This document shows positions 36,245-59,218 of a stretch of DNA of 64,000 nt, in pieces (within the stretch, counting starts at the first letter, position 1; every line of letters starts with the position of its first letter). The translations under genes were made by a program, and so were the position numbers. This DNA is from Cystobacter fuscus (GTDB taxonomy: Bacteria > Myxococcota > Myxococcia > Myxococcales > Myxococcaceae): contig NZ_CP022098.1 of assembly GCF_002305875.1 (NCBI RefSeq), positions 6,510,001 through 6,574,000 of the forward strand, given 5' to 3'. Below the pieces are notes generated by a model, which saw nothing but the letters and a program-made list of their open reading frames with translations, made no database searches and was not told where the DNA came from.

Positions 36245-36265
36245 CGCTGGCGGAGTGCCACCGCC

Positions 36266-36964
36266 TCAGATGCACCAGCCTCCGGCCATCGAGATGACCT
36301 GTCCAGCCATGAAGTTGCTGGCATCGGTGGAGAGCGCGAGAGCAAGCTCGGCGGCTTCATACCCTTCGCCGGTCCGGCCGGCCGGGATGTTGGCCACGAG
36401 CGAAGCGCGCATTCCAGGCTCGGCGAGCATCGCTGGAGTGAAGTAGGTGACGTTCTCCAGGTACGACGGGGCGATGGCGTTGAACTGCACGTTGTAGGGG
36501 GCAACCTCCGCGCCGGTGGCCAGGACGAAGGCGTTCTGGGCACCCCGTGCCGCGGAGTAGACCGCCAGCCCTGGGATGGCCCGGACGGCAACGGCGCTGG
36601 TGAAGGCCACGATCTTGCCGGAGCGCCGCTCGATCATCTGCGGAACGACCGCGCGAACGAAGCGGACCATGGGCCAGACGATCTCGTCCAGGTAGGCCTG
36701 GAAGTCTTCGTCGACGAAGTCCTGGACCTTTCCGAGCATCTTTGAATAGGGCGTGATCCTCAGGGGACCCGCGAAGTTGGTCACGAGCACGTCGATCCTT
36801 CCCGCTGCGTCGACGACCCGCTGGGGGGCCTTGGGGTCGAGGTAGTCGGTCGTGTCGGCGATGACCTCGGCCCCTTCCTTGGTGAAGAGCTCGCAGACCG
36901 GCGGGCCGGCATACCGGTCAGCGCTGGTCACGAGTACCCTGCGTCCACTCAATCGTCCGCTCAT
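36266..36964 (-). CDS. SDR protein with halohydrin dehalogenase motifs
   Basis: A 232-residue short-chain dehydrogenase-fold protein that lacks the Gly-rich NAD loop (TGxxxGxG). Instead it reads T13-SADR-Y18-A-G20, which fits the halohydrin-dehalogenase signature T-x4-F/Y-x-G for the halide pocket. The catalytic residues S123-x12-Y136-x3-R140 fit S-x12-Y-x3-R exactly, with Arg in place of the SDR Lys. Length (232) is in the normal range. Such enzymes turn vicinal haloalcohols into epoxides plus halide, without cofactor. Start ATG 36964 has AGGGA upstream. The dioxygenase-like gene upstream ends only 9 bp before it, so the two are co-translated. If the motifs mislead, it would be an atypical, cofactor-free SDR. 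Confidence 0.8.
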   Translation of the reverse strand: MSGRLSGRRVLVTSADRYAGPPVCELFTKEGAEVIADTTDYLDPKAPQRVVDAAGRIDVLVTNFAGPLRITPYSKMLGKVQDFVDEDFQAYLDEIVWPMVRFVRAVVPQMIERRSGKIVAFTSAVAVRAIPGLAVYSAARGAQNAFVLATGAEVAPYNVQFNAIAPSYLENVTYFTPAMLAEPGMRASLVANIPAGRTGEGYEAAELALALSTDASNFMAGQVISMAGGWCI

Positions 36965-36973
36965 CCTGAGTCC

Positions 36974-37582
36974 CTATCCGAGAGTGAGAAGGCTGCTGCC
37001 AGGAGGGTTTGCCGTTCCGACCCGGACCGCGGACTTCCGGTTGTCCAGATGAACGCTGTAGTCGACATAGGCCTCGTACAGGTTGTCGATATTGGTGGTA
37101 TCGAACCCGTCGAAGGGCTGACCAGACGGACCGTGAATCCGCTGGACGAGCTCGGAGAAGGGACCGTAAGGAACCTGGGGCGCCACGAACATCTGGCGAA
37201 TTCCAGCACCCGTGCTGTCTCGGTAGGTGAGCACTTCGGTCATGAAGCGCCAACCGCGGGCAACCAGCTTGCGGTGGAGCTCTTCCATGTCCTCTTCGGG
37301 CCCGATGTTATAGGCCACGTGCTGCGGTCCCGCGCCGTAACGCTGGATGAACAGGTTGATGGCCGACTTCGGATCGTCACTGACCGAGAGACCCGTCATC
37401 ATCGCCCATGGAAAGTTCGGATCATCGCCACTCGCCAGCGCGATATGCGCCGCGGGATATCGCGGGGTGTGGACGCGAACGTATTCCTTGAAGCCAAGCA
37501 AGCCCCATCGTGCGATGAAGTCGTTCTCGTCCTCGAACGCAGACACGTAGGTGATATGGTCGATATGTTGGATAGACACCAC
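36974..37582 (-). CDS. VOC-family protein, 4-hydroxyphenylpyruvate dioxygenase-like
   Basis: A 202-residue vicinal-oxygen-chelate protein. Candidate iron ligands are in the order expected of HPPD-type enzymes: His9 in HIDHITYV, His88 in GPQHVAYNI and Glu144 in GPFSELVQRIHG. It is about half the length of true HPPD (~350-380), as if only the catalytic half were kept. It may be an iron(II) oxygenase acting on an aromatic or keto acid. It is the first gene of a two-gene unit with the halohydrin-dehalogenase-like SDR, 9 bp apart. Between this start and the astacin start at 37780 lies an AT-rich stretch of about 200 bp that should hold promoters for both directions. Confidence 0.75.
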   Translation of the reverse strand: MVSIQHIDHITYVSAFEDENDFIARWGLLGFKEYVRVHTPRYPAAHIALASGDDPNFPWAMMTGLSVSDDPKSAINLFIQRYGAGPQHVAYNIGPEEDMEELHRKLVARGWRFMTEVLTYRDSTGAGIRQMFVAPQVPYGPFSELVQRIHGPSGQPFDGFDTTNIDNLYEAYVDYSVHLDNRKSAVRVGTANPPGSSLLTLG

Positions 37583-37779
37583 CGTCCGATAACAGACAAG
37601 AATAGTGAGGTCAAGACGCTCCCCAACGGGTGCTCCCCCGCCGGGTCCAGGGACACCGGATAATTATTCTATACATGTATTACACGTATTGCTCGTATTG
37701 CGGTTCTTCTTCGTGGCTTCCTGCTAGGGTCCTTTCACGCTCGACCCGAACCGAGCCGCCACGAAAAGGTACAACCCAC

Positions 37780-39000
37780 ATGAGCCGTCATCATCGATTC
37801 GCCCGTCTGTCCATGAGTACTTCCGCGCTGAGCGCCCTGCTGCTCGGCGGCTGTGGTCTCTCCCATGAGACTGAGCAGGCCTTCCCCGGAAGGTCAGGTG
37901 AAGTGGTGACCGCCCGGGTGGCGTTGCCGGGACTCGGGTTCCAGACGGTCACCTACGAGAAGATCGACGGAATGGCTGTACTGGAGGGGGACATCCTGCT
38001 CGACCTGCGGGAGGCGCCGACCCGAAGCGGCCAGTCCGTGGCCCGGACGGACACGTACTCGCGTTGGCCGGGGGCCACTGTCCCCTACGTCATCGATGCG
38101 GGCCTGCCCGACAGCGGCCGGGTGACGTCCGCCATCCGCCACTGGGAATCCAAGACCTCCTTGCGCTTCAAGCCGCGCACGACGGAAGCGGACTACCTGC
38201 GGTTCCGGCCGGGTTCTGGCTGTAGCTCGTACGTCGGCAGGATGGGGGGCGAGCAGACGGTGGACCTGGCCAGTGGATGCGGCCTGACCGCCGCGATCCA
38301 TGAGATCGGACATGCCGTGGGCCTCTGGCACGAGCAGAGCCGTGCCGACCGGGACAACCACATCATCATCAATTGGGGCAACGTCCAGTCCGGAACGCAG
38401 CACAACTTCCAGACCTACGCGCAGCAGGGAGCGGATGGCATGGACCTGGGCCCCTACGATTATGGCTCCATCATGCACTACGACGCCTACGCCTTCTCCT
38501 CCAATGGCCAGCCGACCATCGTCCGCAGGGATGGGGGAGGGAGCCTCGGGCGGCAAGATTCGCTGTCCGATGGGGACACCCGTGGCGCGGAGTCGCTCTA
38601 TAGCCCGCGCGCCCGCTTCAGCAGCGGGGTGGCCGGGAATCGCTGCCTGGACGTCTCCGACGGCAACCCGGCACAGGGGACTCTCACGCAGATCTGGGAG
38701 TGCAATGGCTCGGCCGCGCAGGAATGGTTCCTGACCGTCCGTGGGGAGCTGCGCAGCACCCTCGCTCCCAACCGCTGCCTGGATGTGTCCGACGCGAAGA
38801 CGACGCCGGGCACTCGGGTCCGGATCTGGGAGTGCAACGGGACGGCCGCGCAGAAATGGACGATCAGCGGCGGAGAGGTGCGCAGCGCGCTGGGGAGCAA
38901 TCTCTGCCTGGACGTGTCCGACGCGGGCACGGCCCTGGGAACCGCGGTGCAGATCTGGGACTGCAACCGCTCGGCCGCCCAGAAGTGGACCCGGTTCTGA
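37780..39000 (+). CDS. Astacin-family metalloprotease with ricin-type lectin tail
   Basis: A 406-residue secreted lipoprotein protease. The lipobox is LLLGGC at about residues 22-27. A short propeptide precedes the astacin domain (about 100-285), which has the zinc site HEIGHAVGLWHEQSR and Met-turn SIMHYDAYAF with the Tyr ligand. The C-terminus holds a beta-trefoil lectin domain: three repeats of NRCLDVSD...QIWECNGSAAQ(E/K)W (QxW motif). It should degrade protein in prey or matrix while bound to sugar. AAAAGG nine bases before ATG 37780 supports the start; the frame extends further upstream without a site. Upstream is an AT-rich promoter region shared with the VOC gene. Confidence 0.93.
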   Translation: MSRHHRFARLSMSTSALSALLLGGCGLSHETEQAFPGRSGEVVTARVALPGLGFQTVTYEKIDGMAVLEGDILLDLREAPTRSGQSVARTDTYSRWPGATVPYVIDAGLPDSGRVTSAIRHWESKTSLRFKPRTTEADYLRFRPGSGCSSYVGRMGGEQTVDLASGCGLTAAIHEIGHAVGLWHEQSRADRDNHIIINWGNVQSGTQHNFQTYAQQGADGMDLGPYDYGSIMHYDAYAFSSNGQPTIVRRDGGGSLGRQDSLSDGDTRGAESLYSPRARFSSGVAGNRCLDVSDGNPAQGTLTQIWECNGSAAQEWFLTVRGELRSTLAPNRCLDVSDAKTTPGTRVRIWECNGTAAQKWTISGGEVRSALGSNLCLDVSDAGTALGTAVQIWDCNRSAAQKWTRF

Positions 39001-55563: not shown

Positions 55564-55673
55564 GGCCGCTCCGCCCCTCGCGTTCGCTGTCCCTTGGTTG
55601 ACTCGGCCGCACGGCCTCCCTGTAATCCCGCGTGGGGCTCCTCGCGAGCGGAGCCCATGCATGGAGGCGCCAG

Positions 55674-56795
55674 GTGCCAAGAGGGATAGCGCTGCTGACA
55701 TGCATGTTGCTCGTGGGGTGTAGTAGCGCCTCCCGGAGCGTTCTCCCTGCCACTGGACAGACAAGGTACTGCGTCTACGTCCCGAGCAGCGGCTTTGAGC
55801 CGGCGAAACACGGTGGAGCATCCGCCGCCGTGCCCGCGCCGGGTGCGAGTTCGCCGACGGCTCCACGTCCCCCTTCCCCACCACCGCTGCGAGGGCTTCC
55901 TGGCGGAGGCGCAGGAGATGGGGTCCCCCGCGGTATGCTCCGCCCGGTGCCGCGAGGCGGCACGACCGCGGCAGGAGCAGGCACTGGCGCTGCGGCAGGA
56001 GAAGCTCTGGTCACGGGCGGCGCGGTCGTCGCGGCCGCGGGCAGTGTTCTGCTGCTTTGCTTCACCGTCAAAGCGGTTGTGGACGGTGAGCAGTCACCCA
56101 TCGACATCGCGGACAGGTTCTACGGTACACACTTCGGAGATGTTTTTGGATGGGCCCGAGGCCGGTATTCCCCAAAGGGTTCTGCTCATCCGGCCAACAT
56201 CGAGATGGAGTTCCTCATTCACCAGGCGCCTGATGGCACGGTGTCAGTAGAGACAAGCGCGCCCACGACCCAACCTGAGTCGGTGTCTTCTCCCCGCGCT
56301 CCTCCCAATGGACGGCCAGATGCGGAATCCGCCAGAGAAAGCAAAAAGAAACGCGGCCGTCTCTATGCAACCTACAGGAAGCGCAATGAGACAACCAACC
56401 TTTACTACTCTGGGCGAACCAGCATGGTCGTTGATCTCAGCCTGCCTCTTGATCTACAGGCACAGTGGGCCATCAAGCTCCGTGATATGAATCATCATGT
56501 TGACGAGAACAAAGATCCAAGCGGTGTTTCATTCGATGATGCGCAACTTGATGTATTCGACCTTGGGGCTGCCATCGACTACGATCAGAGGTATGATGAC
56601 CCAGCATATTGGCGGATTCGCGGTAGAGAGCAGCAACTGATAGACTTCAGTGGAGGCGCCCGGTCCGACACTGGCAAACCCCATCGAACCGAGAACGTCG
56701 TGCGCGCCGTGGCAAAAGACAACCCGCGGGGCAGACGTTTTCACGATGCCGCCACGATTCGTTGGGGCGAACTTCACCGTTACACAGGATACTAG
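55674..56795 (+). CDS. Lipoprotein toxin of duplicated cassette, copy 1
   Basis: A 373-residue polymorphic toxin lipoprotein of the SitA kind (by architecture). A lipoprotein signal MPRGIALLTCMLLVGC (GTG start, GGAGG six bases before it) is followed by a Pro/Gly-rich region, a hydrophobic segment (about 115-135, AVVAAAGSVLLLCFTVKAVV) for membrane insertion, and a C-terminal module (from about 230) with RLYATYRKRNETTNLYYSGRT, NHHVDENKD and IRGREQQLID ... NPRGRRFHDA. The order Y-x-Y...GRT...H...RExxLI recalls GIY-YIG nucleases; this is a hypothesis. The stop is 3 bp before the immunity start. The second copy at 57635 is ~92% identical in protein, with changes concentrated in the C-terminal half. 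Confidence 0.8.
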   Translation: MPRGIALLTCMLLVGCSSASRSVLPATGQTRYCVYVPSSGFEPAKHGGASAAVPAPGASSPTAPRPPSPPPLRGLPGGGAGDGVPRGMLRPVPRGGTTAAGAGTGAAAGEALVTGGAVVAAAGSVLLLCFTVKAVVDGEQSPIDIADRFYGTHFGDVFGWARGRYSPKGSAHPANIEMEFLIHQAPDGTVSVETSAPTTQPESVSSPRAPPNGRPDAESARESKKKRGRLYATYRKRNETTNLYYSGRTSMVVDLSLPLDLQAQWAIKLRDMNHHVDENKDPSGVSFDDAQLDVFDLGAAIDYDQRYDDPAYWRIRGREQQLIDFSGGARSDTGKPHRTENVVRAVAKDNPRGRRFHDAATIRWGELHRYTGY

Positions 56796-56798
56796 GAC

Positions 56799-57257
56799 AT
56801 GCGGCCAACGCATAAACCAGGTTCATTCATGAGGATTCCCCTTCCAGACGGCTCCTTCGGCTATGGAAGGGTTCTCGAATTGCATTTCGATGCCTTCTAC
56901 AATTACAGGACCACCGAACCGGACACGGACCTGGACAGGATCGCATCCAAGCCCATCCTTTTCAGGGTTGTTGTCCGCTCTCCATACTCGAAGTCATGGG
57001 AACCCATCGGGTGGAGAGATCTCGAAGAACGTCTGACTCAACCCATTGTTCAATTCAGAATGGAAGTGGGACCGCTCCGCCGCTGTTGGATTTTCGATAG
57101 CATCGGCAATTCGAGAGAGGCGACCCCAAAAGAATGTATTGGGCTCGAGCCAGCCACTGTTTGGGAATCGCACGGTGTCGAAAAACGTCTGCTCGATGCC
57201 TTCATGGGACGCCCCAACTCAGTACTGGAGCGCATCAAGAGGGAGCTGGAGCAATAG
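56799..57257 (+). CDS. Imm26-like immunity protein, copy 1
   Basis: A 152-residue cytoplasmic protein of the Imm26 type: IPLPDGSFGYGRVLELHFDAFYNYRT at the start, then ILFRVVVRSPYSKSWEPIGW and a Glu/Trp-rich end (LEPATVWESHGVEKRLLDAF). Imm26-like proteins protect against polymorphic toxins. It starts 3 bp after the toxin stop. Both copies keep the first ATG, while an inner Met (copy 1) is Leu in copy 2, which supports the start used. Copy 2 differs at about 15 positions, clustered where specificity might lie (WRDLEERLTQPIVQFRM versus WRKIEEHLTQPVVQFSM). Confidence 0.8.
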   Translation: MRPTHKPGSFMRIPLPDGSFGYGRVLELHFDAFYNYRTTEPDTDLDRIASKPILFRVVVRSPYSKSWEPIGWRDLEERLTQPIVQFRMEVGPLRRCWIFDSIGNSREATPKECIGLEPATVWESHGVEKRLLDAFMGRPNSVLERIKRELEQ

Positions 57258-57634
57258 GGTGTGCCCTCCGCGTCCCGGCACAGGGGCCACCCCAGCGCAC
57301 AAGTCCTCCGCTCACGATGGGCTTTTTCTTGCGCCGGAACCTGGACCAGGGGCTTCTGGCAGCGGCGGGCGCGCATTCATCAGGGGCGTGAAGAGACATC
57401 GGAGGTTCCTCCCTGCGGCACTCGGCCAGCCGCGTGCGGAGGGATCGCCGCGATGGCTCGGCGCTCTTCGATCAGGACGCCACCTTCTGCGCCCAGCCGG
57501 GTCTGTCCGGCTCGGGGGTGTCGTTCGAGTCCCGCCCCTCGCGTTCGCTGTCCCTTGGTTGACTCGGCCGCCCAGCCTCCCTGTAATCCCGCGTGGGGCT
57601 CCTCGCGAGCGGAGCCCATGCATGGAGGCGCCAG
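57258..57634 (+). repeat. Junction between cassette copies with GH2 gene fragment
   Basis: 57423-57531 repeats the last AbfB coding part of the GH2 gene (55264-55380) at ~97% identity. It then jumps straight to the sequence that precedes the toxin in copy 1 (55569 onward), skipping the GH2 stop and terminator. 57258-57422 shows no gene. The arrangement shows that the copied unit began within the GH2 gene. Confidence 0.85.
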
Positions 57635-58756
57635 GTGCCAAGAGGGATAGCGCTGCTGACATGCATGTTGCTCGTGGGGTGTAGTAGCTCCTCCCGGAGC
57701 GTTCTCCCTGCCACTGGACAGACAAGGTACTGCGTCTACGTCCCGAGCAGCGGCGTTGAGCCGGCGGAACACAGTGGAGCATCCGCCGCCGTGCCCGCGC
57801 CGGGTGCGAGTTCGCCGACGGCTCCACGTCCCCCTTCCCCACCACCGCTGCGAGGGCTTCCTGGCGGAGGCGCAGGAGATGGGGTCCCCCGCGGTATGCT
57901 CCGCCCGGTGCCGCGAGGCGGCACGACCGCGGCAGGAGCAGGCACTGGCGCTGCGGCAGGAGAAGCTCTGGTCACGGGCGGCGCGGTCGTCGCGGCCGCG
58001 GGCAGTATTCTGCTGCTTTGCTTCACCGTCAAAGCGGTTGTGGATGGGGAGCAGACTCCCATCGACATCGCGGACAGGTTCTACGGTACACACTTCGGAG
58101 ATGTTTTTGGATGGGCTCGAGGCCGGTATTCCCCAAAGGGCGCTGGGCATCCGACCAACATCGAGATGGAGATCCTCATTCACCAGGCGCCTGATGGCAC
58201 GGTGTCAGTAGAGACAAGCGCGCCCACGCCCCAACCTGAGTCAGTGTCTTCTCCCCGCGCTCTTCCCAGTGGACGGCCAGATGCGGAATCCGCCAGAGAA
58301 AGCAAAAAGAAACGCGGCCGTCTCTATGCAACCTACAGGAAGCTCAATGAGGCAACCAACCTTTACTACTCTGGGCGGACCAGCATGGTCGTTGACCCCA
58401 ACCTGCCTCTCAGACTCCAGGCACAGTTGGCCATCAAGCTCCGTGATTTGAATCATCACGTTGACGAGAACAAAGATCCGAGCAGTGTTTCATTCGATGA
58501 TGCGCAACTGGATGTATTCGACATTGGGGCTGCCATCGACTACGCTCAGAGGTATGATGACCCAGCATACTGGCGGATTCGCGGAAGAGAACAGCAACTG
58601 ATAGACTCCAGTGGAGGCGCCCAGTCCGACACGGGCAAGCCCCATCGAACCGAGAACGTCGTGCGCGCCGTAGCAAAAAACAACCCGCGGGGCAGACGGT
58701 TTCACGATGCCGCTACGACTCGCTGGAGCGAACTTCACCGTTACACAGGATACTAG
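57635..58756 (+). CDS. Lipoprotein toxin of duplicated cassette, copy 2
   Basis: Second copy of the toxin, 373 residues, with the same GTG start and GGAGG site. The first half is almost unchanged. Differences such as RKLNEATN, PNLPLRLQAQL, AQRYDD, DSSGGAQS and ATTRWSE lie in the C-terminal module, where toxic activity and immunity binding are expected. All motif residues (YYSGRT, NHHV, RGREQQLI, NPRG) are kept, so both toxins should be active. It stands 3 bp ahead of its own immunity gene. No terminator comes between, so the cassette may be read as one message. Confidence 0.8.
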   Translation: MPRGIALLTCMLLVGCSSSSRSVLPATGQTRYCVYVPSSGVEPAEHSGASAAVPAPGASSPTAPRPPSPPPLRGLPGGGAGDGVPRGMLRPVPRGGTTAAGAGTGAAAGEALVTGGAVVAAAGSILLLCFTVKAVVDGEQTPIDIADRFYGTHFGDVFGWARGRYSPKGAGHPTNIEMEILIHQAPDGTVSVETSAPTPQPESVSSPRALPSGRPDAESARESKKKRGRLYATYRKLNEATNLYYSGRTSMVVDPNLPLRLQAQLAIKLRDLNHHVDENKDPSSVSFDDAQLDVFDIGAAIDYAQRYDDPAYWRIRGREQQLIDSSGGAQSDTGKPHRTENVVRAVAKNNPRGRRFHDAATTRWSELHRYTGY

Positions 58757-58759
58757 GAC

Positions 58760-59218
58760 ATGCGGCCAACGCACAAACCAGGTTCATTCTTGAGAATTCC
58801 CCTCCCAGACGGCTCCTTCGGCTATGGAAGGGTTCTCGAACTGCCGTTCGATGCCTTCTACAATTACAGGACCACCGAGCCGGACGCGGACCTGGACAGG
58901 ATCGCATCCAAGCCCATCCTTTTCAGGATTGTTGTCCGCTCTCCACATTCGAAATCATGGGAACCCATCGGGTGGAGAAAGATTGAAGAGCACCTGACTC
59001 AACCCGTTGTTCAATTCAGCATGGAAGTGGGACCGCTCCGCCGCTGTACGATTTTCGATAGCCTTGGCAATGAAAGAGAGGCGACCCCAAAAGAATGTAT
59101 TGGGCTCGAGCCAGCCACTGTTTGGGAATCGCACGGTGTCGAAAAACGTCTGCTCGATGCCTTCATGGGACGTCCCAACTCAGTACTGGAGCGCATCAAG
59201 AGGGAGCTGGAGCAGTAG
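58760..59218 (+). CDS. Imm26-like immunity protein, copy 2
   Basis: A 152-residue partner of toxin copy 2, same layout as copy 1. Differences cluster in the middle (LPFDAF, RIVVRSPHS, WRKIEEHLTQPVVQFSM, RRCTIFDSLGNERE). It may protect only against its own toxin copy or against both. The stop is followed within 4 bp by a GTG of the small Cys-domain fragment. Confidence 0.8.
   Translation: MRPTHKPGSFLRIPLPDGSFGYGRVLELPFDAFYNYRTTEPDADLDRIASKPILFRIVVRSPHSKSWEPIGWRKIEEHLTQPVVQFSMEVGPLRRCTIFDSLGNEREATPKECIGLEPATVWESHGVEKRLLDAFMGRPNSVLERIKRELEQ

Follow-up and report, generated by a model that had tools for sequence, protein, structure and literature searches.

An apparently mobile two-gene module pairing a halohydrin dehalogenase-family protein with a single-domain VOC-like protein in Cystobacter fuscus and other myxobacteria

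Results

Gene content and motifs of the locus

The analyzed stretch of Cystobacter fuscus DNA (64,000 nucleotides of contig NZ_CP022098.1, referred to here as the window) carries two adjacent minus-strand genes. One encodes a protein resembling halohydrin dehalogenases (HHDHs), which interconvert halogen-alcohols and epoxides and are cofactor-free; the other encodes a VOC-like protein.

36252..37615, minus strand: two-gene module of about 1.35 kb, delimited by blastn limits and border alignments
36266..36964, minus strand: HHDH-like gene, product P0001; ATG start, 232 aa, complete open reading frame
36965..36973, minus strand: intergenic gap of 9 bp, from the end of the P0002 gene to the start of the HHDH-like gene
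36974..37582, minus strand: partner gene, product P0002; GTG start, 202 aa, single-domain VOC-like protein

On the plus strand, the frame of 36266-36964 is interrupted by a stop. The two genes probably constitute a bicistronic operon, co-transcription being suggested by the 9-bp gap. Beside the module, at 37630-39000, lies a gene for a predicted secreted metalloprotease with ricin-like repeats, a second copy of which is found elsewhere in the genome with 93% identity (G000:C1:11174018-11175332). Further along the window, a tandem duplication comprises two near-identical gene pairs (387 aa + 152 aa) at 55632-57257 and 57593-59218, with a spacing of 1961 bp.

The published HHDH motifs are T-X4-F/Y-X-G and S-X12-Y-X3-R (PMC4989007; PMC11976700), and they have yielded 37 new genes, a representative 19 of which were confirmed active (PMC4989007). 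P0001 carries the first near its N-terminus as T13-x4-Y18-x-G20 and the second, catalytic one as S123-x12-Y136-x3-R140, exactly at the residues given by the first-pass annotation; all six positions are invariant in an alignment of 36 sequences. The same annotation had claimed that the Gly-rich NAD(P) loop (T-G/A-X3-G/A-X-G) is absent, and residues 13-20 indeed read TSADRYAG. Its further claim that the motif pair is specific relative to ordinary SDRs holds within the genome itself: 40 other SDR-like places were fetched, 32 of which gave an alignable open reading frame, and none of these 32 carries motif 2 or the pair, a match to motif 1 being present in a single one. The Gly-rich loop is found in 28 of the 32 and the S..YxxxK triad in 25. 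With the pair absent from all 32, its presence in P0001 is not a matter of chance. At the level of domain models, P0001 belongs to the PF13561/PF00106 superfamily, and its NCBIfam matches are all SDRs, each below its own cut-off.

Family placement and predicted fold

A phmmer search of P0001 against the PDB placed 7b73 (HheD2), 8xxb (HheD8), 5b12, and 4zd6 (HheB) on top, with E values of 7e-51 to 7e-47, while the best match without an HHDH or dehalogenase name followed at about 8e-21. The G-type HHDH 5o30, which is absent from the trees described below, gave an E value of 1e-16 and a much lower score. Pairwise identity to P0001 is 43% for HheD2, 44% for HheD8, 42% for HheB, 32% for 6a41, 29% for HheC (aligned part only), and 25% for HheA2. 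The AlphaFold2 model of the P0001 monomer, made with 36 sequences (mean pLDDT 90, pTM 0.90), shows an SDR-type Rossmann fold like that of HHDH crystal structures. Foldseek ranked HheD2, HheB, and HheD8 on top, and VIA-align gave Z scores of 33.4 to 32.1 for these three, 30.3 for 6a41 ("Dehalogenation enzyme"), and 29.1 for the first ordinary SDR. Such high Z scores are common to all SDR-fold proteins, so that the fold alone is not decisive, and rank and identity decide.

HHDH homologs in themselves are not rare: scanning 84,980 species genomes yielded 80 loci, 4 of them from other Myxococcota or deltaproteobacterial metagenome assemblies (L026, L029, L043, and L044). Nearly all 80 contain both HHDH motifs, the few others having gaps in their sequence or an altered motif 1. 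In a 90-row tree, the HHDH-like rows split from three SDRs of the C. fuscus genome with support of 100/100, and P0001 falls in an 84-row clade (98/91) together with HheB and HheD; HheA2, HheC, and 6a41 lie outside this clade, with long branches leaving the placing of the A and C types unsure. Thus, P0001 was not placed in a non-HHDH SDR clade, the outcome by which its first-pass reading as an HHDH-like SDR could have failed, and that reading is supported by the PDB ranking, the tree, and the predicted fold. Judged from sequence and model, P0001 is supported as a member of the HHDH family and not an NAD-dependent SDR.

A focused 36-row tree refines this placement. One clade (100/98) unites HheB, HheD2, and HheD8 with a Novosphingobium protein, whereas P0001 belongs to a separate five-row clade (100/100) with myxobacterial and Actinomycetospora/Amycolatopsis proteins; these two clades and a Chloroflexota clade compose a 12-row group (88/94). 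Assignment of P0001 to subtype B or D was rejected, as it lies outside the HheB and HheD clade, which contains just three B/D references (HheB, HheD2, and HheD8), and assignment to subtype A or C was rejected, as HheA2 and HheC lie outside its 84-row clade and share only 25 to 29% identity with it. By sequence, P0001 represents a distinct lineage next to subtypes B and D; a new subtype is unproven, the trees being without subtypes E and F. The members of its clade have in common an inserted stretch of about 7 residues near positions 72-79 (PYSKMLGKVQDF), directly after the part corresponding in the alignment to the HheC loop with P84/F86, a loop that lines the substrate tunnel of HheC. This insertion suggests an altered substrate entrance and possibly an altered substrate range.

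Two other parts of the family deserve mention. Among the nearest relatives of P0001 is a protein of a Rubrobacter metagenome-assembled genome (L017:1958-2650; 65% identity), whose gene contains an in-frame stop, the mark of either a pseudogene or an assembly error, and is followed at 2774 by a gene judged by eye to be glutathionyl-hydroquinone-reductase-like. About 24 gammaproteobacterial HHDH-like loci (L033-L093) compose a large marine clade with strongly conserved neighborhoods, in which, for example, genes of DEAD-box-helicase-like and TRAP-transporter-like type are found repeatedly, suggesting a stable housekeeping-like role in that clade rather than recent xenobiotic degradation.

The VOC-like partner

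The HHDH-like gene had been described as sitting behind an HPPD-like gene. The position is correct, on the same strand and 9 bp away, but the resemblance of the partner is confined to the C-terminal half of HPPD. TIGR01263 (HPPD) is the sole NCBIfam match of P0002, covering that half with 26 bits against a cut-off of 277, and the Glyoxalase_4 match, at 25.9 bits, is just below its cut-off of 27. The genome encodes two HPPD-family proteins, and in an alignment with their C-terminal domains P0002 keeps H9, H88, and E144, which are predicted metal ligands of a putatively metal-binding protein. The C-terminal helix segment is also HPPD-like (GFDTTNIDNLYEAY; NIDNLYEA versus NIRALYEA in HPPD). P0002 is without the N-terminal domain of HPPD and without the long HPPD insertion between the second His and Glu. 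A tyrosine-pathway HPPD was therefore rejected as its identity, on the grounds of its 202-aa length, the 26-bit score, and a separate full-length HPPD in the genome. Structure prediction from the single sequence was unusable (mean pLDDT 36), P0002 alone matched nothing in the PDB, and a search there with a four-sequence profile gave an HPPD match at chance level (E 0.23).

Distribution and apparent mobility of the module

P0001 homologs are present in 5 of 195 Myxococcota genomes (E <= 1e-25), and strong P0002 matches occur in the same five of 189 Myxococcota genomes, with a sixth, weak match at E 8e-4. Gene order is identical in all four intact copies of the module. The three copies outside the window genome have 89 to 90% nucleotide identity to the window module, and this is the only shared stretch of the neighborhood: blastn homology ends at 36252-36265 on one side and at 37578-37615 on the other, just outside the two genes, and the flanking genes differ in each genome. 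Copies so similar within wholly different flanks read as a mobile unit, and we infer that the two genes moved horizontally and together, the simplest reading. Values of dN/dS are 0.06 to 0.15 for the HHDH gene and 0.10 to 0.19 for the VOC gene, indicating that both are under purifying selection.

The fifth genome (G096, locus L015) has a decayed module, in which VOC residues 78-165 and HHDH residues 42-150 are left back to back. Only these fragments remain between neighbors that are also present in G094, indicating that the module is decaying in place.

The wider neighborhood of the module is variable in the window genome itself. In two genomes of the same genus, the protease gene to the right of the module is present (95 to 96%), with homology to the window starting at 37636-37638; no clean empty site was obtained in these two genomes, in which the remaining surroundings differ too. 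No transposase or repeat was shown. As a measure of divergence against which to judge horizontal transfer, the HPPD gene of the genome gave no information, its orthologs being matched in fragments only.

Outside myxobacteria, not every member of the P0001 clade has the pairing, its actinobacterial members being without a strong P0002 homolog. No P0002 homologs were found in the plasmids or viral contigs searched. A search of 396 genomes from the phylum to which the Actinomycetospora relative belongs, run without a positive control, likewise gave none. A weak VOC match in Actinomycetospora (L103; 35%) lies on a different contig, beside an alcohol-dehydrogenase/reductase-like gene; it was rejected as the P0002 counterpart, as it resembles a methylmalonyl-CoA-epimerase-type protein.

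Discussion

HHDHs are in industrial use, and they were discovered via degraders of man-made haloalcohols; their natural substrates are largely unknown. What, then, could an HHDH relative do in a soil myxobacterium? What is out of the ordinary here is that a distinct lineage, its entrance loop modified, is strictly paired with a putative VOC metalloenzyme, the two apparently forming a mobile unit. This pairing in a conserved unit, which the first-pass annotation had not seen, is the more informative part of the locus. A literature search found no paper substantively linking HHDHs with myxobacteria, and a paper from 2022 restricts HHDHs to enzymes for halogenated xenobiotics (PMC9396626).

Proposed pathway and alternatives

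We propose, with a probability of roughly 0.7, that P0001 is a cofactor-free HHDH in a two-gene module with the metal-dependent VOC enzyme P0002 and that both serve the same pathway. By analogy with the family, whose mechanism is described in PMC4989007, R140 would lower the pKa of Y136, which would deprotonate the hydroxyl group of a vicinal haloalcohol or, in the reverse direction, give the proton back, while S123 would hold the substrate oxygen. The halide, presumably the natural leaving group, or an incoming anion would occupy the pocket of T13/Y18/G20, where an SDR holds nicotinamide, and this anion pocket would be composed of the 13-20 loop and residues 165-169. P0002 would either make the substrate by oxygenation or consume the reactive epoxide; its role is the weakest step of the explanation. 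That the two genes occur side by side at unrelated sites of related genomes hints at a natural two-step pathway. We tentatively suggest that this pathway is not xenobiotic and that, encoded by a compact mobile gene pair, a single-domain HPPD-like VOC metalloenzyme acts with an HHDH of a new subtype, whose substrate entrance is remodeled, to introduce, relocate, or eliminate an epoxide, a halohydrin, or a non-halide equivalent in a defined metabolite, a specific version that we consider possible but short of probable.

How far does the family name predict the chemistry? The superfamily of P0001, and NCBIfam matches that are all SDRs with none above its cut-off, would agree with an ordinary NAD(P)-dependent SDR whose cofactor loop has degenerated. 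This reading is nevertheless very improbable, and we rejected it on motifs, PDB ranking, and tree: TSADRYAG replaces TGxxxGxG and R140 the catalytic Lys, the nearest solved relatives are HHDHs with E values some 30 orders of magnitude better than that of the best non-HHDH, and P0001 lies outside the SDR branch. A more serious alternative accepts P0001 as an HHDH by descent, with the opening, closing, or isomerizing of an epoxide with a non-halide nucleophile as its natural reaction and haloalcohol activity as a promiscuous one; the enzyme would then act on an epoxide or a similar strained or oxyanion substrate as a step in biosynthesis or detoxification. HHDHs are known to accept azide, cyanide, and nitrite (PMC4989007), the compounds tested are, according to the authors, probably not the natural substrates of HheC (PMC11976700), and the insertion just behind the equivalent of the HheC P84/F86 loop is in keeping with a changed entrance. 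Moreover, no flavin-dependent halogenase of the PF04820 class, the one class searched, was found in any carrier genome, so that an endogenous source of haloalcohol is not evident; the haloalcohol may come from outside or from another halogenase type, or it may not be the true substrate. Against this stands the invariance of the anion-site motif and the triad in 36 relatives, which indicates that anion chemistry was kept, if not halide in particular. We regard a non-halide reaction as a substantial possibility that we do not favor.

The two roles open to P0002 draw on different evidence. Consumption of the epoxide fits known loci, because the hheC operon and the Novosphingobium pSA2 locus pair an HHDH with an epoxide hydrolase; P0002, with its weak similarity to HPPD and Glyoxalase_4, is not clearly an epoxide-opening VOC protein. 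Production of the substrate, for example a hydroxylated aryl or 2-oxo acid compound, by an Fe(II) dioxygenase of the HPPD type fits better with the resemblance of P0002 itself, given its alignment with the HPPDs of its own genome at H9/H88/E144 and in the C-terminal helix (NIRALYEA/NIDNLYEA) and TIGR01263 as its sole NCBIfam match. The missing N-terminal domain and long insertion and a score far under the HPPD cut-off argue against a dioxygenase, and some VOC relatives, such as methylmalonyl-CoA epimerase and FosX, are not oxygenases. We give the dioxygenase somewhat less than an even chance. Within the preferred reading of an HHDH and a VOC enzyme in one pathway, either role of P0002 can be accommodated.

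Under selection in soil myxobacteria and made up of only two genes, the module makes the search for a natural HHDH role tractable, and the VOC partner narrows the chemistry. If the two-enzyme pathway is true, P0001 would be the first HHDH with a VOC enzyme as partner. The clade, in which the entrance loop is enlarged and Tyr18 and Thr122 occur naturally as a pair resembling that of the improved HheC F12Y (PMC11976700), may also serve biocatalysis.

Comparison with known systems

The closest solved enzymes, HheD2 (7b73) and HheD8 (8xxb), share 42 to 44% identity with P0001 in a full-length alignment that includes both motifs, and their structures superpose with VIA-align Z scores of 32 to 33 and an rmsd of 1.6 to 1.7 A over 220 to 222 residues. 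They differ in having F in motif 1 in place of Y18 and G-S in place of T122-S123, and they are without the insertion of about 7 residues near residue 75. HheB of Corynebacterium sp. N-1074 (4zd6) is similar to P0001 in identity (42%), motif-1 Tyr, S-Y-R triad, and Z score (33.3), but it also is without the insertion and clusters with HheD2, HheD8, and the Novosphingobium protein. A B-type relative annotated only as an SDR is encoded on plasmid pSA2 of Novosphingobium resinovorum (L104; NZ_CP017077.1, 481691-482368), with Ser replacing the motif-1 Thr; its gene lies 11 bp behind an epoxide hydrolase gene, amid other catabolic genes.

For P0002, the likeness to HPPD is in the metal triad of the C-terminal domain and the C-terminal helix, P0002 having one domain of the two. 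A pathway similar in outline is that of largimycin in Streptomyces argillaceus, in which a proposed halohydrin-to-epoxide step formally needs HHDH activity and the cluster encodes a VOC protein, LrgB, the authors having found no HHDH homolog in the genome (PMC9396626).

HheC of Agrobacterium radiobacter, with 29% identity over the aligned part, is like P0001 in both motifs and in the T-S at the triad Ser. P166-S167-Y168-L169 of P0001 aligns with P175-N176-Y177-L178 of HheC at the anion pocket, and T122 aligns with T131, the interaction partner of Tyr12 in the improved variant F12Y (PMC11976700). The hheC operon contains an epoxide hydrolase (PMC11976700), so both HheC and P0001 have a paired gene, encoding an alpha/beta-hydrolase epoxide hydrolase for HheC and a VOC-like protein for P0001.
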